Positions 3,731-62,115 of a stretch of 64,000 bases of DNA are shown in pieces. Below the pieces are notes generated by a model. It made no database searches, was not told where the DNA came from, and worked only from the letters and a program-made list of their open reading frames with translations. The position numbers and the translations under genes are program-made. This DNA comes from Polytrichum commune (lineage: Eukaryota > Streptophyta > Polytrichopsida > Polytrichales > Polytrichaceae): positions 49,533,169-49,597,168 of the forward strand of contig OX485806.1 in NCBI GenBank assembly GCA_950295325.1, given 5' to 3'. Positions within the stretch are counted from its first letter, which is position 1. Each line of letters starts with the position of its first letter.

Positions 3731-3740
3731 GCCCTCCCCA

Positions 3741-14000: not shown

Positions 14001-14004
14001 ATTA

Positions 14005-16152: not shown

Positions 16153-16424
16153 CCCCCCCCCCAATCAAATTGTACATAGAGATTTGTAAAAATAAAATTA
16201 TTATTTTTGGCGCCCATATGTTTGCATCCGTGTCCCAATGTATGTTGTTCCCCTTGTATGTTTTTGTTGCCACCAATGGTCCAATTCTTCTTGTGTTTGC
16301 ACAAAATTTCCGTTCTGCTTGAGATGGACATAGCATAACATAGTCCTCGTCCGCCTTCTCTCGCTCGTCGCCGCAGGGTTCGGAGCATAGCGTCGCAGCT
16401 CCCCACCGATCCTCTCCGAGGACT

Positions 16425-20297: not shown

Positions 20298-20692
20298 GAG
20301 GCAATCTACAAACAACCTGGACTCTTGTCAATGGACGGTGGCCACTCAAAATTCCCTCGTCATTACATGAATTGAGTCAGCAATATAAGATTCATATTGT
20401 CTTTTTCAATATAAAAGGTCTTGTCATTCACATTGATTGCATTGTGTATCTATTTCTTTAACCACTAATATCTTGCCACCTAGCACAAGTACACTATGCA
20501 CGACTACTTCGTAAGCACCCACCAATGCACTATTGGTACTAACTATGTATCGCTTTATAATTGCCAATCAATGGTTGTTCACTTGGTTTCATTGATTGAA
20601 TTAAATGCGTTTTGGTTTGCCCCTTGCCATTTCGGCATAACTACGAACCTCCGGCTCCACTACAAGACAAACTACATTCACGTCCAAACTAC

Positions 20693-21245: not shown

Positions 21246-21429
21246 AGAAACTTCATACCATCATAATTTTCTCATACATTCTCCGATTTTAACAAATGAC
21301 CACTCCATCTTCATCTACACTTCTTGTAGATGCTAATGGATTACTCACTTGCCACATTCAGGCAAGTATTGAGGAAGTTATGCCTATTCAAAGCTAGGTC
21401 CCAAAGCAAAATCTGATGTGGGGATCCTA

Positions 21430-34431: not shown

Positions 34432-36430
34432 CGGAGGTTGGGCCATCGCCCTTTACCGCTCCTACTTCAACAGGAAAGCCCTCAACTCCGCGACTTCGTT
34501 GCGGACCGAGGGTTCCTCGGCGGCAACCCTCTGCAATCGGACATGCTGCTCCTCGTCCCTTAGCATTTTGGCGTTTGCCTCCTCCACGCTGAGGACCTCC
34601 GGTTTCACCCTCACCATCCCGGCAAACGCTGTGGGGGAGGGAGGATCCGACCTGAACCTCTTGGCCAGCTCCATGTCGTCCTCGTCCTCGGAGCTTATGG
34701 CTATCGTCTCCTCCACCACATAGTCCCCGTACAACTTCTTGCCCTTCAGCCTTCGCTGCTCCCTGAAGGTGGCCGTCGCGTCCCTGGAGTACATGTCCCT
34801 CGCGTCATCCACAGTCAGCATGGGCACCAACTTGCTCTACGGCGTGGCATCCCGCATGGCCTTCTTCCGCTAAGGGGCTTCGGATTCTTGAGTGAATCAT
34901 GTTGCCCCTTCCTCCACCTCCTTTTCCATTTTTTCTGCTTCCTCCTCCTCTTCTTCTTCCATCTCCTCCCCAACTTCGCCACCTGCTGTCACGGACGAAT
35001 TGCTCGGATGCAACTCAATGAGAGGTTCTGGCAATTGAACGGGGCCCTGCATGGCGAATTCACCTGGGTTGATTCGCCTCGCCATATCCAACGGATTCTC
35101 GCCCCCCTCGACGATCTCTTCGATGTAGGATCCGGGTATCCAGTCGAGGATGTCCATTCTCTTGGCCAGAGTCTTTTGGGTCCTGTAGAATTGAACATCG
35201 GCATCCTCCACATAGGAGTAGATGTTCAACCCAGACATCTGCACAATCCAAATCAATAGCATTAGTATCACCAATGAAATAATAATAAAAAATGACACCC
35301 AAAATAAAATAAGAATAGTTAGTTTGGTCGAGCGACCCAAACCAAGCATGTCGCTATTTTGGGTCGCTTGACCCAAACCGTCCATATAGTTCCTTCAGGT
35401 TTTTTGCTTACCATGGCTACGAAAACCGGTTTGGAGCCCTCAAGACATTGAAGATGCAGTCCCCTCTTTTCGTGAGGGTCCTCATCATCCGCAGGTAGAA
35501 CTCCATGCGCAGCTCATCCGCGGGGTAGTTGGCGTACTTCGCCTCGTTGTACAAGCTCCTGCTGGAGCCCAACCCTTCTTGGACTTGGAAGAGTTTTTTC
35601 ATCCTAGCTATGGGATGGTTTGGCACCTTAAGCAGCTCAGCTTTGTACTACAAAGTACAAGCACAGCACGTTGACGATCTTCGTCTTCTTGTCTTTCAGC
35701 GTGTTGTACGCCCCCTCCGCCGGTGCAGCAACGTAGTGAGATTTTGAGATGGCGTACTCTGGCTGCAATTTCCGCACGATCTCGTACACATGCTCCGCCC
35801 TCCTGTCCTCGACAATCCACAACCAAACGTCGACCTCCCTGAATTTGGGGCTAGTGTAGTCCACGAACTTGGTGAACAACGGCTCGTAAAGCGGGGTGCT
35901 CATTGTCCCCTCGAATGAGGCTCCAGGGATGTTCCTGAAGTCTATCATTGCGAAGGGGAAGCGGTCCCCAGCTTTAGTCATGATCGCCTTCCTGGCATCA
36001 GTGCCCAACCAGCCATGGATCTTGAGAGGGTCGAGGGTGACCAAGTTGAAATGCGCGTCGCCCTCAAAATTGACAATCTTCTTCTCCTTTATGAAGTTGG
36101 AGAAGGCATGCGCGGAGTGTTTGGGAAGCGTCCGGTTCCTCCCCCCCTTCACAAGCTTGGACCTCAGGAAGTCGTCTCCCGCCTCCCTCATGAGTGCCGC
36201 CATGGACGCACTAGTGAACTTGTAGTCAGCTTTGAATGCCCTCCAGTGCACCTTGTCAACCTCTCCATCCACTATGAGCTTCTTCTCGGGCACCAACTTG
36301 TGAAGCTCCTGAACGATGGTCGTCTTCTTCTTCCTGTTCTCCGTCCATTCCTTCATGGTGTAACATGCAGGGACGAAGATTTTGGGCTTGATGAAGATGA
36401 TCTTTGGGTGGACCCAGCATTTCTTCGCCG
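34432..36430 (-). pseudogene. ParB/DNA-MTase-like gene copy 2, C-terminal half (split by giant MULE)
   Basis: Exon 2 (left part) is 36430-35412 and exon 3 is 35238-34432. Both align with copy 1, with the same splice sites (CCATG/GTAAGC donor and TGTGCAG/ATG acceptor). Exon 2 has a one-base insertion near 35655 (GTAGTAC against GTGTAC) and a one-base deletion in motif I near 35439 (TTG against TTCGG), so the methyltransferase frame is broken twice. Exon 3 ends its homology after CCAACCTCCGTCC and has two stops where copy 1 has Gln codons. The 5' half of the gene lies at 54478-56253. The exon was interrupted exactly at the 11-bp sequence TTTCTTCGCCG by the giant element between the halves. Confidence 0.85.
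35322..35378. repeat. Two palindrome copies in intron 2 of copy 2
   Basis: Copies at 35322-35342 (TTTGGTCGAGCGACCCAAAC, one G lost) and about 35357-35377 (TTTGGGTCGCTTGACCCAAA) lie in the 173-bp intron. This is the same intron that holds five copies in copy 1, so the palindromes predate the duplication or home to the same place. Confidence 0.85.
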
Positions 36431-36500
36431 GGAAACTTAGTAGTGTGAGCGGAGAGCGGAGAGCGGAGAGCGGACATTGGAGAGCGGAAAATTTAGATTT
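36431..36500 (+). repeat. Left terminal inverted repeat of giant MULE
   Basis: Begins GGAAACTTAGTAGTGTGAGC and continues with (GGAGAGC)n units and GCGGAAAATTTAG. The right end, read on the minus strand, has the same order with gaps. Confidence 0.8.
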
Positions 36501-36865
36501 TGTTGGGTAATTTTAGGAGAAGCAGTGCCTATTTCCGTGGAATTAGAGATAGTTTGAATTCAATTTGTTGGAAAGACACCCCATTCCCGTGGACATAATA
36601 TCCCAGAGTTGTTCGAGAAACCAACGGATCCTATAGGCGTGGAAGATTGCATTTGTTATCAAACATCTAACAGGCTAGGTTTCAAATGTTTCATATTAAA
36701 TTAGGGCTGACGTCACCAATTGAAATCAAAATAACATACACAAAATATTTTACTGGCCGACAAAATGTAGGTAAAGTTAGGTGCCAACCTCAAGACTTAC
36801 AAAAATGTATATGATATATATGAAGTTCAAGTAGCTATATACAGATTACTCTACTTTATTTCCAT

Positions 36866-37366
36866 CTACACCCTATCGGCTAGGCATGTCCAATATGGAT
36901 AAAATGATTCAAAGATCATGCCATAGATCTCCACCGCACACCAGCAGCTCTCCAATTCATCCCTTAGCTTAGCCAATGAACGCAATGACAAATCCCCCAA
37001 GTCCGACATAAGAATCCTCCTGGGAATTTTTGAGGTGACGTGCCGGCTGTGTGAGAACCACATCAAGTTCATTTGAAATTGATGTATAAGGTTATGTTCA
37101 CGTATCAAAGACACCCTCGGGACACCGTTGGGACCCATGGCGTATTCATATTGAGCCAAACGAAGAGCATTGTACTCGGCACTTTTATCCACAATCGTTT
37201 TTCATGCTTTGCAACATAGCCTCAAATCATGGATTAGCGACAAACGACGTTGGGTGTCCAAAACCGTCTCCCGGCCCGTATCCACATTTGCCGCACCCAC
37301 CAAAAGGTTGGGAACTAAGACTGACAATTGTACATCTAGGTCCAGATACAATACGAGTGGGTCCAT
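36866..37366 (-). pseudogene. F-box-like small protein gene in giant MULE, one internal TGA
   Basis: From ATG at 37366 the minus strand reads MDPLVLYLDLDVQ..., then LSLIHDLRLCCKA-stop-KTIVDKSAEYNALRLAQYEY, and ends at 36866 (about 166 codons). The block RLCCKA(x)K.IVD resembles the end of an F-box (vCraWr.lvd), with the TGA standing where Trp is expected. The remainder (PNGVPRVSLIREHNL; RILMSDLGDLSLRSLAKLRDELESCWC) is not recognised. F-box proteins are substrate adaptors of SCF ubiquitin ligases, so this role is a tentative inference from one short motif. Confidence 0.4.
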
Positions 37367-37479
37367 AATGTGGAATTCGCGCGATCTTCCACAACTTGAT
37401 GAGTTACAAAATAAAGTCGGCCAATATCAAAACTTAAAAACAAACATTCAGGATTTGTGAAATCTAGGCAAGAATGTAA

Positions 37480-37930
37480 CCTCAAAACCAATACTCTAGA
37501 ATTCTGAAATGAGGCCAAGATTTTAACCTTTACACAAGGACTCAAGCAATCTGAAATGTGGCAATGACATAGACCTCAATTCATACACTCTAGAATTCTA
37601 AAATGTGGCCTAGAATGTAACCTCAATTCAGATACTCTAGAATTCTGAAATGTGGCCTAGAATGCAACCTCAATTCATACACTCTAGAATTCTGAAATCT
37701 GGCATAGAATGTAACCTCAATTCATACACTCTAGAATTCTGAAATGTGGCCTAGAATGCTACCTCAATTCATACACTCCAGAATTATGAAATCTGGCCTT
37801 GAATGCTACATCAATTCATACACTCCAGAATTATGAAATCTGGCCTAGAATGCAACCTCAATTCATACACTCTAGAATTCTGAAATCTGGCCAAGTGAGT
37901 AGCCTTAACACAAGGATTCAAGCAATCTAA
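37480..37930. repeat. Minisatellite, about 58-bp unit with CTCTAGAATTCTGAAA
   Basis: About eight units have the form CTCAATTCATACACTCTAGAATTCTGAAATGTGGCCTAGAATG with point changes. The core TCTAGAATTCTA/GA is nearly palindromic around GAATTC. It lies between the F-box-like ORF and X2 in the giant MULE. Bases 37931-39169 contain no recognisable gene. Confidence 0.9.
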
Positions 37931-39169
37931 AATGTGGCAGATTCAAAAAGATTCAAAAATTCAGAGATTTGGCAGAGAGACACACCTGAACTCAAGAATG
38001 CAACCTTTGTCAAATGTGGCTGAAAGAGGCCAAACCAAAACTTCCATTTGTTATATAGCATTTGGGATAGGAAGTCGTCCAATGTGAAAAGGGTGCACGT
38101 GGAGGCAAACATCATGGGCTAAATATTTGATTGGATTGCCCTAACGTAATGGGGTGAATCTTGCCTTGAGTGGGGGATGCAATCTTCATAAGTATGACTA
38201 TAATGCCACATGCAAAATCTGGTGCAATGACCACAACCTTTGTGCTAAAACTTAACACAAAAATTAATCCATTCAAACCATGCAAAGTCACTCACAACCT
38301 TAGGTACTCTCAAGTACTACTAAACTAGGCAACCTCCAAAGTATATTCAAACCGTCCACCCGAACCTTTAAAGAGAAATCAAATCAAACACCAACCTAAC
38401 ATGAATAAGGGATTGAATGAGGTGTGCAAAAGGCACATGGAAATTCAACAAATGAAATTATACATCTTTTTAGCAAAAACAATACATATGGGATGGAGGT
38501 CCGAAATCTGGTCCTACATTCTTCAAGTAGGCCTAACAGAAAATCAAAAGACCCTGTAATTCCGAATATTCAAAACCGTTGATTGATTTGTTTTTACCAT
38601 GTGTGAATAATTGCATGAATAGAAATCCATTGAAATAGCATTTGATTGAGGGCTTGGTCACATATGGATACACACTACACTTAAAAATCCGTGACCACAC
38701 TACATAATTTTGGAGGTGTCTTGGGATGGTCTTTGGACACATTCTCGTGGGCTCTCAGAATTCGTGGTTTAGGCTCTTGGGTCGTGTGTGAAGTAGCCCT
38801 TAAATGCACTTAAGTGTTCTTAAATAATTTAGTCCAAAGTGATACATTGCCCCAAATAGCTAGGGTACTCCATACAAGTATTCTTAGAAAGTATTCTAAA
38901 CATAACATGTGAATCAAAGTTGAGGATGGGGTTCACACATATAGTCTCTCGGAACCGACAAAGTAGTTGAACCTATCAACCAACTAGTTGACCATATGTA
39001 CAAAATTAAAACAATCCTTCAAACTTCAAGAGCAATTGAAAATAAACAACATAAAATGAAGAAGGAGTTGAATGTGGTTTGCAAAAGGCACAAGGAAATT
39101 CAACAAATGAACTTATAAAAAACTCAAACATAGACAATATATAGGAGGTTCCAAACGCGAGAGGCTTAG

Positions 39170-42100
39170 TCAAGAACTTGGACTACCATGTCTATCACTA
39201 TCCTCGCCATGCTCGACCTCTATGTCTAGGAAATCCAAAACTAGTTTGTTGAACGGTCTGATGGGACTAGGAGGTGGAGATGGAGCTTCCGCTATGAGAT
39301 TGGCAAGCTCAGCAACATACCAAGGGAGCTCGAACGTCTTGGAAGGACTCGAACACATGCCTCGACGAAGGTCGGCGTTCTCCACTGGCACTCTGAACCC
39401 CAAAGACAAAAGATTAGAAACAAAATGACACAGGAAGATGGGAAAATAACATGAAGGTAAAAATGTGAAAACATATAGAGCAAACTTACGCACAAAGAAA
39501 ACCGAACGCGCGTTTGGTCATCTTCTGAGGCGGATCAAAAATAGAGGTAGACGGTGGGGCAACTGAGCGAGATGTACGAGCAGGCTGGGGACCAGGAGTG
39601 CATTGAAAATGATGGGGTCACTCTTTAGTGCCACAATATGCCGCTCAAGGGAGCAACATGCTGCAATCGAACCACCTAAAGCAAAGAAAGGTAAAATGTT
39701 AGTATGGAAAGTAGTGAAGCAAAAATAATGGAAAATTCAAAGTAAGGGTGATGCCGAAAAAGAAGGCGTACCTACACCACACTGCCAGTCCATAACAACA
39801 TCATTCTTGTCGGTGAGAGTAGCGAGAAGGATAGAGAAGAAAACATGATGTTTTTCACGAGCACCTCTCCAAGGTATCCCATCAGAGCGCATCGCCTGGC
39901 TCTTCTCATCGGTGAAGGCATTCAACCATCCATCTTGCTGGAGGTTGTAACCATACTCTTGAACAGCCTCCTCCCGCACTTTAAGAACGGAGTTAACTCG
40001 AACAAGAACCTTGATGCTGAATTTCCGAGTCTAAAAAAAATCAAACAAATTTCATTAGACTCCGGAGAAATGAAATAAAACAAAATACACAATCGTATGA
40101 AGAGCCATAGAGTTGTTTACCCCTCCAGAGGGGACCATAGGGAATTGGAGGTCCAAATCATTCATACTAAACCAATCTTCAGCGACGTAGAAATCGTAAG
40201 TGTGTGCCCAATCAAAAATAATCTTAGAAACAGAGGAGCTTGCACAATGTGCAAGGACGAGGACACCATGATCATAGAGGTTAGATTTCGCAAATGCAAA
40301 AAGACACTCATAGTATGATTCATGGAGCTTGTTCCAAGTAGGAACATTGGTGGAGATGTTTGGCACAGACAAATTCTCTAGAATGTCAGCGAAGAACATA
40401 TCGAGGCCCTTGTGAGTTGTAGTCGAGGTGTTCACAAGGGAACGACCTGCCCCAACCTGCAATAAAAACTTCATGAGAAAAATAAAACAAAGAAAAAATA
40501 AAGCAAATCAAAAGGAAAGAAACAAAAAAAATGACGAAGGGAAAGACATAAACCTTGGCAATAAACTCCTGTATCCGGGTATAAGCTGGGAGGGGACCTC
40601 CTGCAAGCTCCGAATCGAGGGCACATTTTTTATGAGGGCAAGTGTGGTAGGCAACTCCGAAGAAGTGGCACTCGTATCCAAGAGGGCGGCCTTCCTCTTG
40701 CGAGGCAAGGAGAGAAGAGAAGTGCCATTGTGAGAAGGAGCAGCAATAGTTTGTGGACGAAACGCTGAGGGAGTACCAGAGGGGGCAGCCGATGAAGCAA
40801 CGGAGGGAGTGATGGAAGGACTCCGTAGTACGGTGGGTGGCTGAACGGGGGTCTTTGAAGCAGACTGAGTGACAACTTGGGAAGAGGCCTGAGTGGCGGT
40901 ATTCTTTCCTCTGCCCTTTCCCTTTGGTGCCTTGGGCAGAGGAGGAGGAAACTCAACGATGTCGGGCTCCTCAAATGGAACAATGTTCTCATCGGGAGCA
41001 CTACTAACTAGGCTGGCAAAAAGAGGTTTCTCCTCACCAGGCACAAATCCTCCAGAACAATCCAAGTACCATCCCCCAGCCTGCAAGTGTGAATGAGGAA
41101 ACATGTTTGTCTGCGTGGTCGTGTACACACAAAGGCTAGAAATGATGTTTACCCAATCGGAGAGGTAGATGGGCAAGGAAGATGATGCCAATGCATTCTT
41201 GGCAACCAACTCTCTCATGATATACCTACAAAAAAAAAGTTAACAATGAGAAAGAGCAGGATATGGAGTGAAAAAATGTAAAAAATGAAGAAAGAAAATG
41301 GAGGATAAGTGCATTACCGATAGGCGACGCGCTTGATAGCGAGAGCACCCTCCTCGAAATCCAAGAGGTTATCACCTTTGGCAAAGGGAATGTCAGGATT
41401 AACGCCGAGGTAAGGCTTGAAGGCTTTGTCCCAAAGGAGAATCCTCCAGTGATCAACATATTCACGAGGGCGTAAGATAGTCTCTGATGCGTCCCAATCG
41501 ATATCGATGGTGAGGTCGTCCTGAAAGGAATCAATCTGGACGGCGACTTCTTTCTCCAACTGAAATAAGGGAGAGAGAGAGTGAAATTAGATATGAAACA
41601 AGAGGAAAGAAAAAAAAATCAAAAAGCCAAGGAATGGATATACATGAGTCCAGAATGATACCTTGTGAAGCCAGTCGTCCAAAGTCTTCTCCCTCATAGG
41701 CTTGTCGACGGGGAACTTGTTCTCCGACCTCTCACGAATTGAGGCGTTTCACTAATGAAGCCACTTGGCTTTTAATGCAGCTTCAACCGGACATGTGACA
41801 ATTTTCTGCAACTTTTCAATTGTCATATCAGTCGAGGCAAACTCGTTAAAATGCCTGTCGATCTGCGCACGTCCAAAGAAATGAATTAAGTTCAGGAAGG
41901 TACATAAATGAATGGGTTATTCATATGAAGGAAACCATGAACAAATCCGTGAAGAAGGGATACCTCGTGAAAGAATTCCTCCCCATTGTCAGGGTGTGCG
42001 ATTGAGATGTACTTTTCAAATGTGCGTGTCCGAATGCTCTTGATCGTCCTCTCTTGGGCCTTGGTCATGACATTCTAAATTTCTGTAGCAGTTCTCTCGG

Positions 42101-43413
42101 CAACCTGAGTGGTTTCACGGTAATGCCTCACCGCAAGGTCAGCTTGAGCCGAAATCTCTCTCTGCGAAAATTGACATTGTCAGCAAATACAATCGGCATG
42201 AAATGCAGGCCGGGAAATAGAGAAGGCAGAATGCAAAACCATACCTTGTAAAGGAATTTGACGAAGACATCCGCGGTGAGAGTGTACCAAGTAGGACGAC
42301 TCTCCTTAATCTTCTCGCATGCTTTGTAGTCAGCAAGAGATATGAGATCCTTGAACGTCGATAATTCCAACCTCCCAAACGTATGAATTCGAAGGAGCTT
42401 GGCATGAATGTTTGCCTTCACATAATCATGCTCGGTAGACCTGAGAGGGAAAAAGAATATGAGGATCGACCAAGGAAATGAACGGATAAAATCAACAAAA
42501 AAAAGACTATGCTTACCAATTAATGTCGCTCATTGCGTTGAGGAGGACACCAGTGCAACCCCTAGGGTCGACCACAATACAATCCACCAACACATGCCAA
42601 CTCTTGTCGTCGGCGTGGTTGTTGTTGATGTGCCTCCACCATGTTGTAAGTCGATGGTTTCCTTCCCACACGAAGAACATCTTGCCACAGAAATGTGCAA
42701 GATCCGGATCCTCCTTCAGCTTGACATCGAACTCCGCGGAGGCCTCTTGCCAGAAAGGACTCCATGAGGCCATAATGGCAAGGAAAACCGGGAGGTCTAC
42801 CGGAATGTCATTGAAAACCGAAACGTACATTACCCGATCTCCCTCTCGGTATCCCATAACAAACTCACATTCCAAACGCTAGACCTCTACCTCGCTGATT
42901 GGACGGACAAGAGGGAGGGCTCGCAAGCGGCACAAAGGAATGGAGAAGCGGGACTTACTAGTGGGCTTAATACGGAGGCGTCGAATAACGCCGTTGGGAT
43001 CCTCCTTTTGTGATTTGCGGAGCTCAAACTCACATACAATAGGATCCGTGTCGGCAACAGCAACGACGTTATCATGGCCAATAGACATCACCTCTCCTTG
43101 CATTTGGCTTTGGGAATTGGCACTCTTAACTTGGGCGGCCTCAACCTCGACCACGGGGGCAGCAATAACAACGTCCTCTGCAGATTGATGTTGCCCCTCC
43201 GCAACCTCAAAAGATTGAGAATCCTAAGAAAATGAAACCATATGAGAACTTCCCAACGAACAATCAAATGACGAATATCCCAAACAGCTATCAAAATTAC
43301 CAATATCCCAGTAGCTATCAAAAAAATAACTCCCAAATTAGTTTGAACACAAAGTAATACTGTTATCTATAAGGAGGAAAAAGAGAACCAACCACATTCA
43401 AAGCCGCCATCAT
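39170..43413 (-). CDS. X2: ParB-like + beta-class DNA-MTase-like gene carried by giant MULE (damaged)
   Basis: Minus-strand exons from 5' to 3': 43413-43393 (MMAALNV, weak donor), 43223-42517, 42440-42245, 42161-41964, 41862-41662, 41559-41318, 41225-41153, 41080-40554, 40456-40121, 40030-39772, 39675-39490, 39392-39170. All internal junctions are GT...AG, and phases agree except after the 41080-40554 exon. The first long exon has a ParB-like core (IPLCRLRALPL; KMFFVWEGNHRLTTWW). The C-terminal part is methyltransferase-like: LDMFFADILENL at motif IV, NLYDHGVLVLAHCAS, WFSMND, then motif I across an intron, NDVVMDWQCGVGGSIAACC. The DPPY motif is not conserved. Lesions are TAG near 42880 and 42076, TAG-TGA near 41750, and apparent one-base shifts in the linker (about 40640) and after motif I. 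It may be a decayed or domesticated protein. Confidence 0.7.
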
Positions 43414-43629
43414 GATGAGATAAAAGTGTGAAAGAGGTCCTCGAGAATGTAAACAAAAGAAATGCCTGATAGAAAAGCAAGGCCGAGCCAAGTCATGTAG
43501 GGTCTCAAAGAGAAGGTCGCCTTTATTACCTCAAACATATGCACCAAGCAAGACATGACAAGGCCGAGAGTGAAGTCAACCACAAACATACATTTAAAAG
43601 AGGCCTCCCACCCTGGCTCATACAAAACA

Positions 43630-46600
43630 AGAAATGCCGAGAGAATGTGAGCCTCGGATCCGAGGCCTTTACAGTAGCTCTAGCTCTCAACTTAACAAAA
43701 CTTAAAATCCCGAGAGCAAACTGATGAAGCATAACCACATGATTTTTGAAACACCTACTTCTAAAATTAAGCAAACATGATTTTACAAGCACCAACCCAG
43801 CCACAAATAAGAGAGACCTTGGATCCGAGGCCTCTGCAACATAAGCTTCAATTTATGAAATTAAGCAACAATGAAATCAAGAGAGCAAACTGATGAGGCA
43901 TAACAACATCATTTTTAAAGCACCTACTTCTGAACTTAACAAAACCTGAAATGCCGAGAACAAACTGATGAGGCATAACCACCTGATTTTTCAAATCCCT
44001 ACTTCTGAAATTAAGCAAACATGATTTTACAAGCACCTACCCTGCCACAAAAAAAGGCCTCGAATCCGAGGCCTCTGCAACATAAGCTTCAACTTTTGAA
44101 ATTAAGCAACCATGAAATCCCGAGAGCAAACTGATGAGGCATAACCACAAGATTTTTCAAACACCTACTTCTGAAATTAAGCAAACTTGAATCCCGATAG
44201 CAAACTGATGTGGCATAACAACATAATTTCTGAAATCCCTACTTCTGAAATTATGCAAACTTGAATTCACAACCACCTACCAGACACCAAAAAGGAGGCC
44301 TCGGATCCGAGGCCTGTCCACCCTTAGCTTCAACTTCTGAGCTTAACAAATATTGAAATGCCGAGAGCAAACTGATGAGGCATAACAACCTGGTTTTTAA
44401 AGCACCCAATTTTGAAATTAAGCAAACATGATTTTACAATCACCAACCCAGCCACAAATAAGAGAGGCCTCGGATCTGAGGCCTCTCCACCCTTAGCTTC
44501 AACTTCTAAAGTGAACAAAAATTGAAATGCCGAAAGCAAACTGATGAGGCATAACCACATTATTTTTCAAATCCCTACTTCTGAAATTAAGCAAACTTGA
44601 ATGTCGAGAGTAAACTAATGAGGCATAACAACCTCATTTTTCAAGCACATACTTCTGAACTTAACATTACTTGATATGCCGAGAGAAAACAGATGAGGCA
44701 TAACCACACAATTTTTCAAGCACATAATTATGAAATTAAGCAAACATGATTTTACAAGCACCAACCCTGCCACAAAAAAAAAGGCCTCGGATCCGAGGCC
44801 TCTCCAACATAAGCTTCAACTTTTGAAATTAAGCAAATATGAAATCAAGAGAGCAAACTGATGAGGCATAACCACATGATTTTTCAAATCCCTACTTCTG
44901 AAATTAAGCAAAACTTGAATGTCGAGAGCAAACTGATGAGACATAACCTCCAGATGTTTCAATCACCTACTTCTGAAATTAAGCAAACATGATTTTGCAA
45001 GCATCTACCCTGGCACAAAAAAAAGGCCTCGGATCCGAGGCCTCTCCAACATAAGCTTCAACTTTTGAAATTTAGCAAACTTGAATCCCGAGAGCAAACT
45101 GATGAGGCATAACAACATGATTTTTCAAATCCCTACTTCTGAAATTAAGCAAAACTTGAATGTCGAGAGCAAACTGATGAGACATAACCTCCAGATGTAT
45201 CAATCACCTACTTCTGAAATTAAGCAAACATGATTTTGCAAGCATCTACCCTGGCACAAAAAAAAGGCCTCGGATCCGAGGCCTCTCCAACATAAGCTTC
45301 AACTTTTGAAATTAAGCAAATATGAAATCAAGAGAGCAAACTGATGAGGCATAACCACATGATTTTTCAAATCCCTACTTCTGAAATTAAGCAAAACTTG
45401 AATGTCGAGAGCAAACTGATGAGACATAACCTTCAGATGTTTCAATCACCTACTTCTGAAATTAAGCAAACATGATTTTACAAGCATCTACCCTGGCACA
45501 AAAAAACAGGCCTCGGATCCAAGGCCTCTCCACCCTTAGCTTCAACTTCTGAAATTAAGCAAATATAAAATCAAGAGAACAAACGGATGAGGCATAACCA
45601 CATGATTTTTCAAATCCCTACCTCTGAAATTAAGCAAACATGATTTTACAAGCACCTACCCTGCCACAAAAAAAAGGCCTCGGATCCGAGGCCTCTGCAA
45701 CATAAGCTTCAACTTCTGGAATTTAGCAAACTTGAAATCAAGAGAGCAAACTGATGAGGCATAACCACATGATTTTTCAAGCACCTAATTATAAAATTAA
45801 GCAAACATGATTTTACAAGCACCTACACTGCCACAAAAAAAAGGCCTCCGATCCGAGGCCTCTGCAACATAAGCTTCAACTTCTGAAATTAAGCAACAAT
45901 GAAATCAAGAGAGAAAACTGATGAGGCATAACCACACGATTTTTCAAGCACCTAATTCTGAAATTAAGCAAACATGATTTTACAAGCACCTACCCTGCCA
46001 CAAAAAATGAGGCCTCGGATCCGAGGCCTCTCCAACATAAGCTTCAACTTCTGAAATTAAGCAAATATGAAATCAAGAGAGCAAACTGATGAGGCATAAC
46101 AACATCATTTTTAAAACACCTACTTCTGAACTTCAGCAAACATGATTTTACAAGCACCTACTCAACCACAAAAAAAAAGGCCTCGGATCCGAGGCCCACC
46201 TACCCTTAGCTTCAGCTTCTGAACTTAAGAAAACTTGAAATGCTTAAAGCAATATGATGTCTTAATGGCCTACTTCTGAACTTAAAATTACTTGAAATGC
46301 CGATATCAAACTCATGAGGCATAACCTCCTGATTTCTTAATGGCGTACTTCTGAACTTAAGCAAACATGATTTTACAAGCACTAACCCTGCCACAAAAAA
46401 AGAGGCCTCGGATCCGAGGCCTCTGCATCCCTAGCTTCAACTTCTGAACTCAACAAAACTTGAAATGCCAAGAGTAAACTGGTGAGGCATAACAACCTGG
46501 TTTTCAAGCACCTACTTCTGAAATTAAGCAAAACTTGAATGCCGAGAGCAAATTGATGAGGCATAACAACATCATTTTTAAAACACCTACTTCTGAACTT

Positions 46601-48800
46601 CAGCAAACATGATTTTACAAGCACCTACTCAGCCACAAAAAAAAAGGCCTCGGATCCGAGGCCCACCTACCCTTAGCTTCAGCTTCTGAACTTAACAAAA
46701 CTTGAAATGTCTAAAGCAATCTGATGTCTTAATGGCCTACTTCTGAACTTAAAATTACTTAACATGTTGATATCAAACTCATGAGGCATAACCTCCTTAT
46801 TTCTTAATGGCCTACTTCTGAACTTAAGCAAACATGATTTTACAAGCACCTACCCTGCCACAAAAAAAGAGGCCTCGGATCCGAGGCCTCTGCATCCCTA
46901 GCTTCAACTTCTGAACTCAACAAAACTTGAAATGCCGAGAGTAAACTGGTGAGGCATAACAACCTGATTTTTCAATCCCCTACTTCTAAAATTAAGCAAA
47001 ACTTGAATGTCGAGAGCAAACTGATGAGGCATAACAACATCATTTTTAAAACACCTACTTCTGAACTTAACAAAACTTGAAATGCCGAGAGAAAACTGAC
47101 AAGGCATAACCACATTATTTTTCAAGCACCTCATTCTGAAATTAAGCAAAAATGATTTTACAAGCACCTACCCTGCCACAAAAATAGAGGCCTCGGATCC
47201 GAGGCCTCTCCAACATAAGCTTCAACTTCTAAAATTGAGCAAACAAGAAATCAAGAGAGCGAACTGATGAGGCATAACAACATCATTTTTCAAATCCCTA
47301 CTTCTGAAATTAAGCAAAACATGATTTTACAAGCACGTACACAAACACAAAAAAAGGGCCTCGGATCCGAGGCCTATCCACCCTTAGCTTCAGCTTTTGA
47401 ACTTAAGAAAACTTGAAATGCCTAAAGCAATCTGATGTCTTAATGGCCTACTTCTGAACTTTAAATTACTTGAAATGCCGATATCAAATTCATAAGGCAT
47501 AACCTCCTGATTTCTTAATGGCCTATTGCTGAACTTAAGCAAACATTATTTTACAAGCACCTACCCTCCCACAAAAATAGAGGCCTCGGATCCGAGGCCT
47601 CTGCATCCCTAGCTTCCACTTTTGAACTCAACAAAACTTGAAATGCCGAGAGTAAACTAGTGAGGCATAACAACCTGGTTTTCAATAACCACACCTACTT
47701 ATGAAATTAAGCAATATTGAATCCCGAGAGAAAACTGATGAGACATAACCTCCAGATGTTTCAATCGCCTACTTATGAAATTAAGCAAACATGATTTTAC
47801 AAGCACCTACCCTGCCACAGAAAAAGAGGCCTCGGATCCGAGGCCTCTCCAACAAAACCTTCAACTTCTGAAATTAAGCAAACATGAGGCATAACCACAT
47901 GATTTTTCAATCCCCTACTTCTGAAATTAGGCAAAACTTGAATGCCTAGAGCAAACTGATGGGGCATAACAACATCAGTTTTAAAACACCTACTTCTGAA
48001 CTTAACAAAACTTGAAATGCCGGGAGCAAACTGACGAGGCATAACCACATTATTTTTCAAGCACCTAATTCTGAAATTAAGCAAACATGATTTTACAAGC
48101 AACTACCCTACCACAAAAATAGAGGCCTCGGATCCGAGGCCTCTCCAACATAAGCTTCAACTTTTGAAATTGAGTAAACTGATGAGGCATAACAACATCA
48201 TTTTTAAAACACCTACTTCTGAACTTAACAAAACTTGAAATGCCTTAAGCAAACTGATGAGGCATAAACTTCTAATGTCTTAATGGCCTACTTTTGAACT
48301 TAATATTACTTGAAATGCCTAAAGCAAACTGATGAGGCATAACCTCCTCATTTTTCAAACATCTACTTCTGAACTTAAGCAAACATGATTTTACCAACAC
48401 ATACCCAGCCACAAAATAGGAGGCCTCTCAATCCTTAGCTTCATCTTTTGTGCTTAACAAAACTTGAAAGGCTTAAAGCAAACTGATGTGGCATAACAAC
48501 CTGATTTCTTAATGGCCCCTACTTCTGATGTTAAGCAAACAAGAAATGCCTAAAACAAACTGATGAGGCTTAACCTCCTGGTTTCTGGTTGGCCTACTTC
48601 TGAACTTAACATTACTTGAAATGCCTAAAGCAAACTGATGAGGCATAACAACTTGATTTTTCAGGCACCTACTTCTGAAGTTAAGCAAACAAGACATGTC
48701 GAGAGCAAACTGATGTGGTATAACCTCCTGATGTCTAAATGTCCTATTTCTGAACTTAACAAAATTTGAAATACCTAAAACAAACTGATGAGGCATAACG
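43630..48800. repeat. 5-kb satellite with about 21 GGCCTCGGATCCGAGGCC palindromes, upstream of X2
   Basis: Palindromes occur near 43651, 43816, 44055, 44295, 44465, 44785, 45025, 45265, 45510, 45675, 45841, 46011, 46178, 46403, 46645, 46868, 47187, 47357, 47580, 47826 and 48121, at spacings of roughly 160-320 bp. Between them are about 80-bp subunits with ACTTCTGAAATTAAGCAAAC, ATGATTTTACAAGCACCTACC and GAGAGCAAACTGATGAGGCA. Most copies of the palindrome are perfect although the DNA between them is diverged. Translated frames across the array are repeat artefacts. The array ends about 220 bp upstream of the X2 start. Confidence 0.95.
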
Positions 48801-49560
48801 CCTTCTCAGTTTGTTGTGCTACCTCCACGTTGTCTTCTTCTTCGTATCTATTTCCACTCTCTCCACTCACCCCATCATCCTATATTTAAGACATAACAAT
48901 GTTTAGGGCAATGGTGACAAACCATAATATTTAAGAGATAGTATTTTCACAATTCAATATGTTCCTCCATTTTAATTGTGTGCTCAGACAACTGAATATA
49001 TGGAGAACCCGAATAATACGTACAACACTTGTAGAGTTCGTCTCCTCGCGTGATTCCTCTTGGATGCTGACATTTCCCAACTCCTCCACTTCTGCCATTG
49101 TCTGTGTTTTTCTTCCGTCCGCCTTTTCTACAATCGGTGATAGAAGGAAAGGCCGTATCTCACAGTTTTGCCTTCACAAAAGTTTAGGATGCCTCAAATC
49201 CTCGGGCGTTCCACGGCCCTTGATTGGTGCATTCGTTGACTGTGTCTTTTGTGTCCTCACTGTCTTCCTCTTCTTGTCTGTGTATTGTGTAGATGATCGC
49301 CTCCTCTTCTTCTTCTTTGATGGTTCCGCTGTCGGAGGTTGTGAATTTCCTATTTCCTTCATGTGTTCAGGCCTCCAGCAATTCAGACCCAATCGCTATA
49401 TTTCCTTTCCACAACCTCACCACATCAAACTCACACATTGGAAAGTGAGTGAGCTTGCATTCTTCTCAATTTATAATTCATGTTTAGGGTTTTCCTCTTT
49501 CTGACAGACGATCCGCGTTTTCCATTTTTGGCATCCTTCATCTGTTCACTGTATATCTCT
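48801..49560. other. Region upstream of transposase, no confident gene
   Basis: This stretch between the satellite and the transposase start should hold the transposase promoter. A Lys/Arg-rich minus-strand frame (49174-49392) and an overlapping plus frame have no recognisable motif and are not called. Confidence 0.4.
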
Positions 49561-52500
49561 ATGGCTTCCTCGTCTTCTGTGCCTTGTTTGTCAGAGATGA
49601 CGGAGCTCTGTGCCAATGGCTTCGGAGTGCCCATCCTCTTTCCTATAGATGCAGACGGATTTGCACATGTCTCTTCCCTCCACCTTAGCATCAGGTTCTC
49701 CTTGCAGGATGGTTCAATCTGGGTCGAACGCGAGATTTATGATCCCCTTACCTCTCTGTTGTCCGTGACCATGCGTGAGAATCGCATTCTTGCCGACAAC
49801 GGATCATTTGTGTGGAAACTTGCCGCAGGTAATTACAGAGTCTACGGACTCCCCGAATCTCGGCCACACGTTTCCACCGAGATCCGTACCCCACTTTATT
49901 CTTCCGCTTCCACGTTCAACACCCCTCCCGCCGTTTGTGTCAAGATTGAACCTGGTATTCATACTGTAATACATCTTTCTGATTCATCTGATGGTGATGA
50001 CCCCGTTCATTCCACTCTTAATGTCGTGCCATCTTCATCCTCCTTTGGTCCCCCCTCTGTGTCCCCCCCCCCTTTGCACCTTGATCCGATGTGTCATCTT
50101 CCCCCATCCCCTCCCAAACACACCCCTTCCATTCTTCAATGTCTTCGTTCTGTTGCTTCCATGCCCGGTAAGAAAAACATCCTTAAGAAGCTTGATTATG
50201 ACACCTTGCGAACCGAAGAGGTGAATTTTCTCCCCCCTTGATTTGATGGTGATCTTATGTTTGTCCTTCCCCCAGTCGGTGTCTCTTCCTCTCATAAGAA
50301 GGCCCAATCTATGGACGGCATGGACAAACGCTACGACGGCCATGTTTGGACTAAGACCCAGACCACCAATATCACCAATGACATGGGCCTTGCTTTTCGC
50401 TCCTCCATTTGCGTTGGCCACCTCCAGTGCCAAAATCCTCAGTGCGATTACCTACAACGTGCTCATCGGACTTCCCCGGTCAATGATACTGATTTCGACG
50501 GATTCACCAAGGAGCCATTCCCCGTTGGTGGACCCTTGCCTTTGGGATCCACTCTAGTGTGCCGGATATGTAAGAAGCCTCCCAAATGCATTGCACCATG
50601 TCCTGCCAAAATCTTCTACGTCCATGGCAAAGGCACCACTCAGCGTGCCTGTATTCATCTGGGCAACCATCATCATCCCGTCAAGGTTGGCAACTGCAGA
50701 GATAGCCGCAAGCGCATCGACGCCCTCATCGAGGAGCACGTCGAGCGAACGCCCCAAGCCACTCATAGCTAAATCGTCCTCGAAGCCAGCAAAGACCTTG
50801 TGGGTGAGTTCCTCCAACGCAATGATAGTGATCCTCATCACCTTCTCTCGTTGGAAGAACTTGAACCAGTTTTTGATCGTTGCAAGGAGTTGAATTCCCC
50901 CCACCTCCGTAACAAGGTTACCAATTTCAAATACTTACGTAGGTTAGGGGTTATGGATGGAATTGCCAAACTTCGAGGTGTCAGCAACTGGGCCTATGTC
51001 CAGCGTAATCAATTCCCGGGCCAGGGTGACGAGAAGGACAAAGTTTTCGTTTTCAAGATGTCCGAGGTCGGCCGTGGTAGTGGGGTCAACTTGGTTAAGC
51101 GTATGCAACCTGGTGGGGATCTCGAGCATGCTTGGATGATGTCTGACCATGTCAAACGCATCGCCAAGTGGACCACCATGGCTTGCCACATATACGACGG
51201 TACCTACCAGCGCATCATGACCATCGCTTGCTGCGACTTCCAATCCGAGGACAGGATGCTCAAGTTTTTTTTTGGCAGAACCTCATCCAAGTCATGGCCC
51301 GGCACGGTGTCCCACATCCAAACTTCATTGGCTTCATGGCAGACAGTGCCCAAGCCAATTGGAACGCTGTGCGAATTGTGTATGGTTCAGGAGATCCTAA
51401 AGTTCCAATGAAAGGCCGTGAGCGCACTTGTTATTTTCATTGGAAACAATCGCTCGAGAAACATACGAAATCATATATAAAACATGAGTTACAAGACCAA
51501 CATAGACACCTTTGCCTTCAATATCGGAATGCGTCGTCTATAGAAGAGGCCGAGACTAGGTACCTAGCTATCAAGGCTTGGTGGTCTTCATCGAATTGTA
51601 CAAGTGAAGACGGTCTCAAGCACCTTCAACTATGGCTTGCTTTTTGGCACTTCCGCTACCTTCAATGGGGTGGTTTCATGGAACTGGTACATCTCCCTTA
51701 TGATTCCTTATTGTTTTTTCTTTTCATTATTTTCATCTGTCTGTGCTCGCTCTAATACTTCATTTTTTCAATCAGGAAAAGGTATTGACCCCAGACCAGT
51801 TGGCCGAGATGCCATCGTGCAATCTTGCGGAGTCCGTCCACAACAAGTGGCTTCAAGCCTCCGGCAACAAGGGTGGAGACCTATACGTTGCTACCGTGGA
51901 CGACTACATTCGCGCCTTCTTACAAGTTGTTGCATACTTCCAATTCCTTAAAGGTGGAATTGGCGGTGATGGTCCAAGCAAAGAAGAACTGAAGCTCAGG
52001 GGAGCTCAACGTCGAGCTCAGCATACTGGCAACCCCACAGTGTTGCAGAAGGTGTTGCTTGACATGCCTGGTGGGGAAAATTTTTGCACTCGCGATCCAC
52101 ACCTTCAGGGCGCCGAGGTGTTTGGATCGCAGAAGCGAAGACCGGACACTCCAATTGGCGATGATGGCGAGACCCACCGCTCGGATACCGTCAACTTCTC
52201 TCGCCCTCCCCCCGCGAAGCGCGTCACTCGATCTCAACCAGTACCACTACCTACTATCATTGAGGAGTTTTCCCCGTGTATAGAAGAGGTTCAAGTTCCT
52301 TCTCCAGCAGGAATTGGTTTTTATCGTGTCACCGCCGTTCAAGAAACCAAAGTAGATGTCTCTCTTTGGCATATTGCCCGCATACCCCATACCTCTGGAA
52401 AGTCTTGTTGGGCTAATCATGCTGGCACGAAGAAGAAGTGCACCGCAAGAATTATCACCAATAATAAAAGCGTCCCTGCACCGACCTACACCGGTATGTG

Positions 52501-53233
52501 GCATCATTACACACTCCAAGACGAGAAGCGAATGGAATTCGTGTTTTGTCCAGATGACATCGAGCGTTGTATAAAAGGCCCTCGTCGGAAATGGGTCATG
52601 CCGTTCTCTGCTGATGATCAGAAACCTCCTGTTCCCCCAATATGGCCCGTCAAGATTGGGACCAACCTCACCCGTTCGGAGATCTTCGCGCTTGAGAACG
52701 CAGGTTTTCAACTCCCACCAAAGGAGCGCATCACACCAACTCGACTCTTCACTAACTCTGCTCCCCCACTGGATATGTCTGGAATCCGTATTCTAGACAA
52801 CCCAGACTTCATCCCTCCGACAAGATTATCCAAGGTTGTTCGACGATCCAGCAACGCACCTTCGGCAAAGCAGAGGCAGATGGTTGCTTCTGCTGAAGCT
52901 ATGCATGATACTGTTCTGAAGTTAGCAATGATCCTTCAACCGGGATTTGGTTGCATTATCACTCTGCAGTCCAAGGCAGAACCGCAACCCCCCATCTACC
53001 AAGTGACAGTCAGTTATCTTCCAGAGTGCAATTGTCCATACTTTCTGGATATGATTTCCAAGTTCGGCCGCAAACGAAATTCCTATATGAATTGTAAGCA
53101 TCTCTATTACATCTTCATCAAGGTTTCTAATTTGGATGCGGAGGTGAATTTGTTCATTCACGCCCCGACCTTCAGCTTCAATGAAGTCAAACTCATCCTC
53201 GAAGGGGGTTTTTTGACACATTCTACTTCTTAG
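49561..53233 (+). CDS. MULE transposase with SWIM zinc finger (giant MULE), two lesions
   Basis: Exons are about 49561-50220, 50276-51686 and 51776-53233, with GT...AG introns at 50221 and 51687. The first intron is out of phase by one base as modelled, so its acceptor or the frame is uncertain. In order: Ser/Pro-rich N-terminus (start MASSSSV); a Cys block CVGHLQCQNPQCDY...CRICKKPPKCIAPC; a DDE-type core (TIACCDFQSEDRMLKFF; GFMADSAQANWNAVR; RTCYFHWKQSLEKH) as in MULE transposases; EMPSCNLAESVHNKWLQASG; a second Cys block (KSCWANHAGTKKKCTARI); and a SWIM finger CNCPYF...NCKH at about 53030-53100. Cut-and-paste transposition is expected from the family. A TAA at 50770 and a frameshift at a T9 run (about 51265) interrupt the frame, so this copy is probably inactive, although a poly-T length error is possible. 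Confidence 0.8.
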
Positions 53234-54399
53234 AATTCATCTCAGCCTACCAATACATTGTGGACATCATGTGAACTCATAATTCTTTGTTCTAATAAAT
53301 AAAATCCCATGGATTGTTTTTATTCCTTTCAAGATGTTTTATTACAATACGGAATTGTGTCAAGCATGCATACTATGCCTATCAACTATACTTCCGTGTT
53401 TTCATCCTCCTACATGCTTCGGACTTCTTTTCGTCGTCCCTTCTTGATGGAGGTGGACCCGGTCGAGGCAAATCAACGTACGAAACCATTTTATCCCTCA
53501 TTTGATCCTTCAATGGACGACGATGCGGCGATAATCCTCTCATCCTATCGCGAAACGACAAAGACCTCAAACATTCGCCTACCATCTTGACTTCCTGCTC
53601 GGTGTCGATTGCCTTGTCTTCATTCAAATCAGCCGAATCATTTGCTTCACTATTCATGCACCTTGTTTCGTCCTTCTCCTGCACATCACCTTGTCTTTTA
53701 TCATTTTTTACATATCATTTCTGCTCCTCCTGCATCCTCCACCTCCAAGCTTGTGTGGACTGTGAAAATGGAGTCAGCTCGTAGTCATCACTATATCGAT
53801 TTGCAGCACCTATGTCATGTTTCGGCGATGAATTAAAAGGAACATGCGGATCTCCTAGACTTCTAATCTCCTTCTCCCATCCTAGGCCATCAAACATGTC
53901 TCTCTCCTCTCCCATTATGTGCATATGTCTTTACATCCGTATTGGATGCAAGTATAACTTATGTCCTCATTTATATACTGTTGAAGATAAGCTCTTCGAC
54001 CACAAACAATAATTGTTGTAGTCCAAGCTCTAGAGTTGACTCCCACATAGGACAAAGACAAAAGTGTTGGAATAAAATTGAAGTAACTTGATCGCCCTTT
54101 GTATTTTGATTGACTCATTCTTCAATTATACCAACCTCCATATAATTATTTTCATTCGTTCTTTCTTGGTTCATCATTGGTTTTATCATATATTTTTCTG
54201 TTTTATCTTAATTTTATCTCTTCCCGATTTCCAAATGTAATGAGACCCTTTCAAATTCAGGGCCTTTTGATTTAATTTTGGACCTATATATTCCACGGAA
54301 ATAGGTCATAATTTTATACTAGTTTAAGGAGAATCTAGAATATACTGAGAATATTTGAGACTTTTAAAATATTTCTAAATTTGGTTTGAGAAGTTTACT
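53234..54399. other. 3' flank of transposase, no confident gene
   Basis: Minus-strand frames at 53382-53684 and 53715-53924 have plausible residue composition (acidic, then Arg-rich) but no recognisable motif. The stretch up to the right terminal repeat is otherwise AT-rich and without a gene. Confidence 0.35.
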
Positions 54400-54466
54400 A
54401 AATTTAATTCATTTCCGCTCTCTGCTCTCCACATCTCCGCTCTACGCTCACATAGCTGTGTCATCC
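54400..54466 (-). repeat. Right terminal inverted repeat of giant MULE
   Basis: Read inward on the minus strand it begins GGATGACACAGCTATGTGAG, then CGTAGAGCGGAGATGTGGAG, GCAGAGAGCGGAAATG and AATTAAATTTAG. It matches the left terminus imperfectly. Confidence 0.8.
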
Positions 54467-54477
54467 TTTCTTCGCCG

Positions 54478-56253
54478 TCGGCTGCACGTGAAAGATGTGG
54501 GACGCCGTTTTTCCCATCTCTGTCTCCGAAAGCCCTTGAAGAGCTCTGAAGATTTCCCTCACCAGAGGCTTCATTTGCTTGAAGCGCGCAGTCTGGTTGA
54601 AGAGCATGCCGGTGTCGGGGTCGATGAGATCCCCCGTCTCGTGTTTTGCGAAAACACTTTTCCATCTTTCCCACACAGAGTCGAACGCTATGATCAAATA
54701 TATTTCTCTTCTTAGCTCGTTGTACTTCTTCTGCTTGTGGCTAGCGTTGTCAATCAAGGAGAATTTGTTGATCATCTGGTATTTGAAGTCCTGCATATGA
54801 AGTCAACAACACACGTTAGAAAACTGCCAATGCAACAGCAGTTTGGGTCGATCGACCCAAACTATAAACCTGACGAGGACAATTAAACAATGCACGAGTT
54901 TGGGTTGATTGACCCAAACATACTCTCCTCCCATTTGGGGTTCTTGTCTTTAGCATTCTCCCTTTCCTTGGGAAGCCTGCCGTAAAACTCCCACACCTCC
55001 CTCGAGGCCATGATGTTCCGAATCCACGATGCCTGGTAGACCCTCTTCTTGTTCCCCATGTTGAAGAGGCGTGAGATGTTGGTGAATACGGTCTCGTTGC
55101 CAGACCAAACCACCAATGTTTTTCACACCTTTAGCTTCTCCTTTTTTTTATGGGGGTCGTCCCACTCAGTCATCAGCTGGATTTTTTTAGAGGCCTCTAC
55201 ACTGTGCTGGCCGTCAATCAGCTAGAAGTCTCCTTTGCATATTTTTGGCCACATATTAGGCGTTGGCATTCTCTTCAGCCTTTGGGGCATTACCACAATT
55301 GTCTGCCTGTCGTTCTTGAACTGCCCGCCCAAGATCTGAGCGACCATCCAGTCGACGTAGGCGTCCTCCTTGGCTCGGACACACTTCTCTGGTGGCGCAA
55401 GTTGGCACTGTGCAATGTTCACCTCGAACTTGAAGTCCCTGCCCATGAAGAAGTAGTGCAGACATTTCGTCTTAAAGTTATCATTGATTTTCTGTATCTT
55501 GCCTGCATCCACCTCTTGGCCAGGTTTCAGCATCCGCAGCTCCGGGGAAACTGGCTCGGTGGTCATCACTAATGATTCTCTTCTCCTCTTCGACGGGGTC
55601 GTCTGCCGGCTTGCGGACGGTGTTGGAGTCTCACTGTCAGCCGGCGTTCCTATAGTGCTCGTCCGTCTGGAGTCTGCAGGGACCGGACGCGGCTTCCTCA
55701 CAGTTTGGGATCTGCGCGACCCTGCGCCTTCTTCCGTCGTTGCCTTACGCCTCACAGGCTGCTGCGTTTTGGGTTTGCTTTGCAGCACCTTGTTGAGGAC
55801 CGTGATAGCCTGTTTCCATTTTGTAAACCTGCTAGCAACCTTCGTGTTGGTTACATTGCCATCTCTGAATATGGCCTCCGGTTTTATTGTTTCAGGTTCC
55901 ACGTAGGTATCCTTGGCGTAGAGGGGGTCGAAGGCCTCGGAGAATTGGTGCATGAACATGTGGACGTTCTGCACGGCGGAGTTCTCAAGAATTACGTCCA
56001 TGTGATCCCCGAGGGCTTGGACGGACGCAACCTCCCATCCTGTCAACGTTGTCCAAGTGTGTTGCTCATGGGTCCCCACTTTTACCACGAACAACAGCTT
56101 GAACTGGGAGCCCTTCACAACCTAAACGGACCACGCAAGAACGAGCCCATCCTTGGGCACGTATGAGTTGTCTTGGGGAGTTTCATACTCCTGCCATAGT
56201 TTGTCTGGCGCAAGCATAAACCACCTTTGTCCAGGTCTCTTCTTGGGGGCCAT
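54478..56253 (-). pseudogene. ParB/DNA-MTase-like gene copy 2, N-terminal half
   Basis: Exon 1 runs from 56253 (after acceptor TTATAG; reads MAPKKRPGQRW) to 54928, 442 codons; exon 2 (right part) is 54790-54478. In order: a conserved N-terminal block (WFMLAPDKLWQEYETPQD), a region with VQALGDHMDVILENS, a basic Ser/Thr/Pro linker, then the ParB-like part: FEVNIAQCQLAPPEKCVRAKEDAYVDWMVAQI, IVVMPQRL and LIDGQHSVEASKK. Three in-frame stops are present: TAG near 56119, TAG at 55224-55222 where Trp precedes LIDGQ, and TGA near 55119 where copy 1 has Trp. The donor after KWE is GA instead of GT (54927-54926). The C-terminal half continues at 36430 on the far side of the giant MULE. Confidence 0.8.
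54841..54919. repeat. Two palindrome copies in intron 1 of copy 2
   Basis: A perfect TTTGGGTCGATCGACCCAAA copy (54841-54862) and a variant with TTGATTGA centre (54898-54919) lie in the 137-bp intron, in the same intron as the four-copy array of copy 1. Confidence 0.9.
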
Positions 56254-56280
56254 CTATAAGTCCAAAAATTGAAACTATTA

Positions 56281-56393
56281 GTTTCGGTCGATCGACCCAA
56301 AGTATTTGACAATGCATTTAACATTTGGTGAAATGGGACAAATGTATTTTGTTGACCATCATCAATTCCAGGTTTGGGTCGATAGACCGAAAC
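56281..56393. repeat. Palindrome variants upstream of copy 2 exon 1
   Basis: Two imperfect copies (56281-56302 with TTTCGG/CCAAAG arms; 56372-56393 with centre CGATAG) lie upstream of the first recognised exon, probably in another intron because the exon follows an acceptor-like TTATAG. Confidence 0.75.
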
Positions 56394-56634
56394 CTTGAAC
56401 ACTTGTTGGCTCGTGTTCCTTATGTGCTGAAATAGACATATGATGGTTCTTTGTTAGAGAATTTGGTTGTATTGGTATAGTATATCTGTGTATACATGAG
56501 TCCATCAATTTCAATTATGGGCATCATTAAATATAAATTTTTGTTTGGGGAAATGAGGACCACTCCTTCTGTTTGGATTCTTTTAATGTGGGCATCATTT
56601 GGTTTGAGTTCAGGGTTTCATCAACATGCTTTAT

Positions 56635-56803
56635 TTGGGTTGAGCGACCCAAATATTTAATTATTTTTAAAGTTGATTTTAAGTGTTTTATTAGATTTTA
56701 AATTGGGGTTTGGGTCGAGCGACCCAAACATTTATTTAATTTTCAAGCTGATTTTAAGTGTTTCATTGGATTTTAAATTGGGGTTTGGGTCGTCTCCCAA
56801 AAC
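56635..56803. repeat. About 74-bp tandem units with palindrome variants
   Basis: Three diverged units contain (T)TTGGG(T)TGAGCGACCCAAA, TTTGGGTCGAGCGACCCAAAC and TTTGGGTCGTCTCCCAAA plus ATTTTAAGTGTTT(C/T)ATT(A/G)GATTTTAAATTGGGG. The following 56804-57682 holds no recognisable gene; a purine-rich plus-strand stretch (57270-57540) is low complexity. Confidence 0.8.
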
Positions 56804-61736: not shown

Positions 61737-62115
61737 ATTTGGGTCGGTCGACCCAAACATATCCCCACAGTGTGGGAGGGCTCTGGATGATCCATAAACC
61801 CATCTTGCGCCACCAAGGTTTGGGTCGGTCGACCCAAACCCATCCCCATAGTGTGCGTGCTCTTTGTGATGAGCCTAAACTCATCCAGTGCCACCAAGGT
61901 TTGGGTCGGTCAACCCAAACCCATCCCCACAGTGTGGATGGGCTCTGGATGACAATGATTAAATCCTGCCACAAGGTTTAGTTCGCTGGACTCAAACCCG
62001 TCCCCACAGTGTGGGTGTTTTCTGTGATGAGCCTAAACCCATCTTGTGCCAACAAGGTTTGGGTCGGTCGACCCAATGTCATCACCACGGTGTGGATGGG
62101 CTCTAGATGGCAGTG
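61737..62115. repeat. Five about 80-bp units, each with two palindromes
   Basis: Each unit has TTTGGGTCGGTCGACCCAAA (or a close variant; one unit has only GTTTAGTTCGCTGGACTC) followed by CCCATCCCCACAGTGTGGATGGGCTCTGGATGA-like sequence. CCCCACAGTGTGGG is a second inverted repeat. The first palindrome belongs to the family otherwise restricted to ParB-MTase-like copies 1 and 2. Confidence 0.9.

Follow-up and report, generated by a model that had tools for sequence, protein, structure and literature searches.

An 18-kb element within an exon

We analysed a 64-kb stretch of Polytrichum commune DNA (the window, C4:49533169-49597168) in which an 18,037-bp element, E1, lies at 36430-54466 and interrupts an exon that has a paralogue elsewhere in the window. 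Between its ends E1 carries an accessory gene on the minus strand (39298-43235), a tandem array (43685-48799) and a Mutator-like transposase gene on the plus strand (49561-53233), both genes being broken.

The string TTTCTTCGCCG occurs at 36420-36430 and 54467-54477 and at no other place in the window on either strand. A reading made from the sequence alone (the sequence-only reading) had taken it as an 11-bp target site duplication; the exact repeat stands, but its length does not. Because a G precedes GGAAACT in all 26 distinct left ends that we extracted from the genome, whereas the base 3' of 24 distinct right ends varies (G in 8, A in 6, T and C in 5 each), the G at 36430 was assigned to the element, and the eleventh base agrees in only three of seven paired copies. 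The duplication is thus 10 bp long (TTTCTTCGCC, left copy at 36420-36429 and right copy at 54467-54476). The imperfect terminal inverted repeats proposed earlier (36430-36499, plus; 54397-54466, minus) were borne out by alignment over about 70 bp, with 49 of 72 columns identical and a score equalled by none of 1000 shuffles and none of 1000 random 70-mers of the window. For Mutator-like elements (MULEs), the passages of PMC6446971 that treat their structure give duplications of 8-11 bp and inverted repeats of 14-500 bp; E1 has inverted ends of about 70 bp, and a 10-bp duplication flanks it and its six paired relatives. The ends also bear another repeat, of the GAGAGCGG type, distinct from the dyads described below.

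The interrupted exon, which belongs to the second copy of its gene, was recovered on the minus strand in two parts (5' part, 54477-54790; 3' part, 35412-36429) through its inverted repeat with the paralogous exon of copy 1 (638-1969, plus; 1332 nt, bounded by AG and GT). In this comparison the empty site is represented by a paralogue about 79% identical, not by an allele from another individual. With E1 and one duplication removed, AG and GT indeed enclose an exon of 1332 nt, the same length as that of copy 1, and the two align unbroken across the junction at about 79% identity. Exact rejoining, as previously claimed, therefore holds for length and junction, but the rejoined exon is itself disrupted: its frame is shifted, with stops between approximately copy-1 positions 1731 and 1938, and is then restored, so that the equal length conceals compensating indels. 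These indels and stops in the copy-2 exon are unconnected with the MULE insertion.

Family members and their two genes

We searched 407.8 Mb of genome in 64 contigs with the terminal 200 bp of E1. The left end returned 41 listed matches at 88-100% identity, 31 of them beginning at the first base (40 of 331 candidates scored), and the right end 42 listed matches at 78-100% (40 of 344 scored); copy counts are lower bounds. Ends with the terminal motif were extracted by script from the fetched loci (26 distinct left, 24 distinct right) and paired when the 10 bases outside the left end, beyond the G, equalled the 10 outside the right end. The 624 combinations yielded seven pairs, each on a single contig and in a single orientation, against 0.0006 expected, these pairs having themselves been selected by the 10-bp match. 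That 19 of the 26 left ends stayed unpaired says little, given the fraction of candidates scored. The proposed check for other elements with these ends was thus answered by pairs spanning 18-57 kb. Besides E1 (18.0 kb), they comprise E2 (C4:9.238 Mb, 21.8 kb), E3 (C4:42.845 Mb, 32.1 kb, about 11 kb of it a nested gypsy element), D (C1:36.99 Mb, 25.9 kb), E (C1:24.6 Mb, 25.3 kb), F (C5:50.4 Mb, 19.5 kb) and a seventh member at C7:10.78-10.83 Mb (56.9 kb) known from its ends alone. Candidate elements joining C4:48531770 or 48565108 with 48605299, and C1:39855394 with 39915956, were rejected, as their flanks were not common to both ends. Element D contains two insertions of about 0.97 kb (20435-21408 and 22099-23073), apparently of one small element, inside one transposase gene, and three copies of the palindrome core TGTCCCGGGACA.

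In all six sequenced copies the left end is followed by the accessory gene (minus strand), a central tandem array of about 3.5-11 kb, the transposase (plus strand) and the right end. Exon 1 of the E1 transposase (49561-51686, plus) is broken by in-frame stops at 50239-50241 and 50770-50772 and by a frameshift near 51.15-51.4 kb, while its E2 counterpart is uninterrupted; the E1 sequence and the comparison with E2 point to an intron at 51687-51775, followed by exon 2 (51776-53233, plus) with the presumed catalytic E and a SWIM motif. In E2 the two exons together specify an uninterrupted transposase of 1189 aa. The catalytic D, D and E are conserved in the aligned relatives, and the four SWIM residues, of the zinc finger pattern CxCx(n)CxH, in 23 of 23 or 23 of 24 of them, which supports the SWIM-bearing MULE transposase noted from the sequence. 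A fold search ranked the bacterial ISCth4 transposase first to third (PDB 6xgx, 6xg8, 6xgw) as best match of the catalytic part, with Hermes, integrases, RAG1 and the P element lower. The protein folded was a relative 34% identical, with a predicted template modelling score of 0.38 over 1050 residues; by blocks, residues 401-600 reached a predicted local distance difference test score of 70-97, and the stretch holding the E fell below 50. ISCth4 is of IS256 type and is not known to have the WRKY/GCM-like and SWIM parts. By its conserved residues and its fold match, the transposase is a DDE enzyme of RNase H fold and IS256/Mutator type. Pfam returned no family at all, neither MULE nor SWIM, for the 1189-aa E2 protein at E-values up to 1, a PDB sequence profile search gave no match, no relative of the core was found in viral contigs and no match to a 209-aa piece in phages; the VIA-align structure list named no eukaryotic MULE chain, and its library may hold none.

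The accessory gene consists of about 8-10 coding pieces, which tblastn found in the same order in E1, E2, E3, D, E and F, always on the strand opposite to the transposase. The main left-hand genes, previously counted among several unrelated ones, are therefore pieces of a single gene. One exon (42516-43235, minus) is predicted to adopt a ParB/sulfiredoxin fold, on the basis of 183 relatives of the F version, an AlphaFold model of one relative (P0182) and its VIA-align list; a profile of 60 relatives matches the E1 exon at E-values of 6.5e-70 and 1.5e-24. This exon is present in E1, where it contains stops, in D, and uninterrupted in E3 and F; among the six sequenced copies it was not found in E2 and E. 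The E1 version is the most divergent, being 61-65% identical to E3 and F, which share 81%; the pieces in D are 79-92% identical to E3 and F and 46-70% to E1. Exons f and g (39740-40507, minus) are methyltransferase-like through weak matches of the sister copies, namely to NCBIfam CcrM (E-value 6.6e-4, F only), the PDB profile of DpnA (0.025) and Pfam PF01555 (0.2, F only). These matches weakly suggest that the C-terminal part, in which the catalytic motif is altered, is related to N4/N6 amino-methyltransferases. As both of its genes are broken, E1 could be mobile only with proteins from sister copies.

Further to the left, E1 contains an open reading frame (ORF; 36869-37201, minus) whose relative in E2 and D is 169 aa long, and a 47-bp minisatellite of nine copies (37471-37892). 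The E2 version of the ORF matches the Pfam F-box at an E-value of 0.071, below cut-off.

Dyad arrays and mosaic history

The central arrays of E2, E3, D, E and F fall into three types lacking array-level BLAST similarity (E2/D, E3 and E/F), but their commonest 12-mers converge on one 22-bp near-palindrome, ACCCTCTCGG-(T/A)T-CCGAGAGGGT, with 10-bp arms and a 2-bp centre. Allowing up to four mismatches, this common dyad occurs 63 times in E2, 49 in E3, 54 in D, 122 in E, 63 in F and not at all in E1. E1 has instead 21 copies of GAGGCCTCGG-NT-CCGAGGCCTC (up to four mismatches; 43648-48143) in and just before its array, and this form is absent from the other five; three Markov controls gave 0 or 1 site each. 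A count of perfect palindromes of at least 16 bp brought up the dyad core only in E1 and E3, whereas in E2, D, E and F a k-mer count recovered the near-palindromic form, centred on GGTTCC. Dyads lie in the central array and also to its left. The 5-kb satellite formerly regarded as cargo thus corresponds in position to the tandem array of every other sequenced member, the dyads of these arrays being shared or related.

The two halves of the elements have different histories. Synonymous divergence (dS) of the transposase is 0.01-0.20 in all pairs of compared copies, whereas for accessory exons e to g, E2, D and E3 differ from E1, E and F by a dS above 1 or undefined, with a nonsynonymous divergence (dN) of 0.25-0.41. 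The accessory gene too is a mosaic, since exon a of E1 is saturated relative to F and exons e-g are not. In the pairs E1-E2, E1-E and E2-E, BLAST homology of the transposase block sets in 5-11 bp ahead of the transposase start, and between E3 and E2, D or E about 0.5-0.65 kb ahead of it. Within the limits set by six copies and nested insertions, we infer that the transposase half was repeatedly exchanged or converted among old accessory/array lineages.

Other parts of the window bear related features. At 20691-23120 (plus), 13 copies of the common dyad directly precede diverged ParB-like pieces (E-values 9.3e-7 and 4.9e-20), and an exon-e-like piece lies at 28235-28693 (plus; 1e-4); these may be what is left of a second and older accessory module. 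The C-terminal half of a second transposase, decayed and with about 50% protein identity to the E1 one, lies at 18807-20282 (plus). A third 22-bp dyad, GTTTGGGTCG-NN-CGACCCAAAC, brings the kinds in this single window to three, with 24 sites (up to three mismatches) around and within both copies of the interrupted gene (390-3762, 35321-35378, 54841-56729 and 61737-62078) and none in the six sequenced MULEs. The interrupted gene may belong to another large element. Since this dyad surrounds it, we suspected a ParB-methyltransferase relative, but pairwise scores stayed in the range of shuffled sequences, 151 and 67 of 300 of which scored as well, and the hhalign probability was 0.3. Elsewhere, a Gypsy long terminal repeat retrotransposon occupies about 3990-16340, with an uninterrupted 2086-aa ORF (6856-13116, minus) very similar to one nested in E3, and an ORF at 16344-17189 (plus) has a NIF-type phosphatase domain (PF03031, E-value 1.4e-13).

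A candidate role for the accessory gene

E1 belongs, in inactivated form, to a giant MULE family with two opposite genes and a dyad array, and we consider it probable that the accessory protein reads the dyads. Because of this anatomy, movement would be by cut and paste: the transposase would cut at both ends, and the stagger at insertion would be 10 bp. The accessory protein would bind the 22-bp dyads that surround the promoter region, probably as a dimer; by analogy with VANC of VANDAL elements and with the role proposed for the ParB-methyltransferase proteins of algal giant transposons, it may keep the element from silencing or mark it as self. A more specific version appears possible but doubtful: a methyltransferase-derived protein of ParB fold would read tens of family-specific dyads round its own promoter and load or spread on element DNA against silencing, different families in one genome using different dyads and each rescuing only itself. 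The variant dyad and the most divergent ParB-like exon do occur in the same copy, E1. The diverged locus at 20691-23120 speaks against a simple code, carrying the common dyad beside ParB-like pieces only 29-39% identical to those of any copy.

Alternatively, the dyads might be transposase-binding or promoter-regulating sites of a giant MULE whose accessory gene acts elsewhere, an explanation that we hold rather unlikely and that gains from E2 and E, which retain arrays without the ParB-like exon, and from the array preceding the transposase start in each of the six copies. Yet dyads are found to the left of the central array as well, interspersed with accessory-gene pieces or past them, and the five copies with the common dyad have none of it in the outermost 2.5 kb on the left or the last 5 kb on the right, the ends bearing the different GAGAGCGG-type repeat. 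Palindromes can promote replication slippage, and the arrays could be selfish satellites that expanded passively, their dyads an accident of slippage at hairpins, for which the third dyad around the interrupted gene and its paralogue might speak; that three dissimilar array types keep one 22-bp dyad, and that the diverged locus keeps it too at its 13 sites, makes such an origin improbable. Least credible by far is a composite in which a short MULE captured unrelated host genes and a satellite, as Pack-MULEs do. The weakly F-box-like ORF, present in E1, E2, D and partly E3 but not in E and F, would fit it, but the same accessory gene and array position recur in six of six copies, the gene shows deep synonymous divergence under constraint, and the main content is family-wide, not copy-specific captured host fragments.

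The favoured giant MULE with a dyad-reading accessory protein has partial counterparts. VANDAL elements of Arabidopsis with VANC anti-silencing proteins are likewise MULEs with an extra gene beside the transposase, and excerpts of PMC5735166 and PMC10398659 describe tandem arrays of a short motif, located within introns and ahead of genes, that vary between related copies. A family-specific motif in tandem arrays is thus common to both in kind, but the VANDAL motif has 9 bp, not 22, the duplication is 9 bp, not 10 (PMC6446971, in part), and the accessory gene here has a ParB-like exon. Sola1-1_Ec32 of Ectocarpus, a giant DNA transposon of 21.5 kb, similarly has an opposite-strand gene with ParB-like and N4/N6 methyltransferase domains; it belongs to superfamily Sola-1, not to MULEs, and the relevant passages of PMC12477816 mention no dyad arrays. 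The present gene shares the ParB-like domain and the orientation, but its methyltransferase-like motif is altered. A ParB-CTPase fold fused to an N6_N4 methyltransferase, a pairing that the accessory gene may share, is described in part of PMC12704722 for phage proteins, whereas the present gene belongs to a transposon of a eukaryote. Abermu MULEs of barley (8,176 bp) also carry an opposite-strand gene, ORFR, that differs between distant species, but according to sections of PMC9168764 they have 9-bp duplications, 138-145-bp terminal inverted repeats and less than half the present size.

As far as the portions cited go, a 2019 review argues that barriers may keep eukaryotic transposons lean and gives 7 kb for the largest of the original Pack-MULEs (PMC6431247), the authors of PMC9168764 call their 8-kb barley MULE large, and the range in an arthropod survey is 1.4-10 kb (PMC13359780); giant DNA transposons are already known among KDZ, EnSpm, Sola-1 and Polintons (PMC6431247, PMC12477816). 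In the open literature, most subscription journals lying outside the search, we found neither MULEs as large as these nor a ParB-type accessory gene in a MULE, nor any paper pairing "ParB" with "Mutator-like". Members without large nested insertions measure 18-26 kb, with one of 32 kb holding a nested retrotransposon and one of 57 kb known by its ends. Since MULEs of 18-26 kb exist and at least one, E2, has an uninterrupted transposase, the size limit is not intrinsic. The second gene would connect VANDAL anti-silencing with the ParB-methyltransferase transposons of algae, and together with the dyad it offers a concrete, testable pair: one protein and one 22-bp site.
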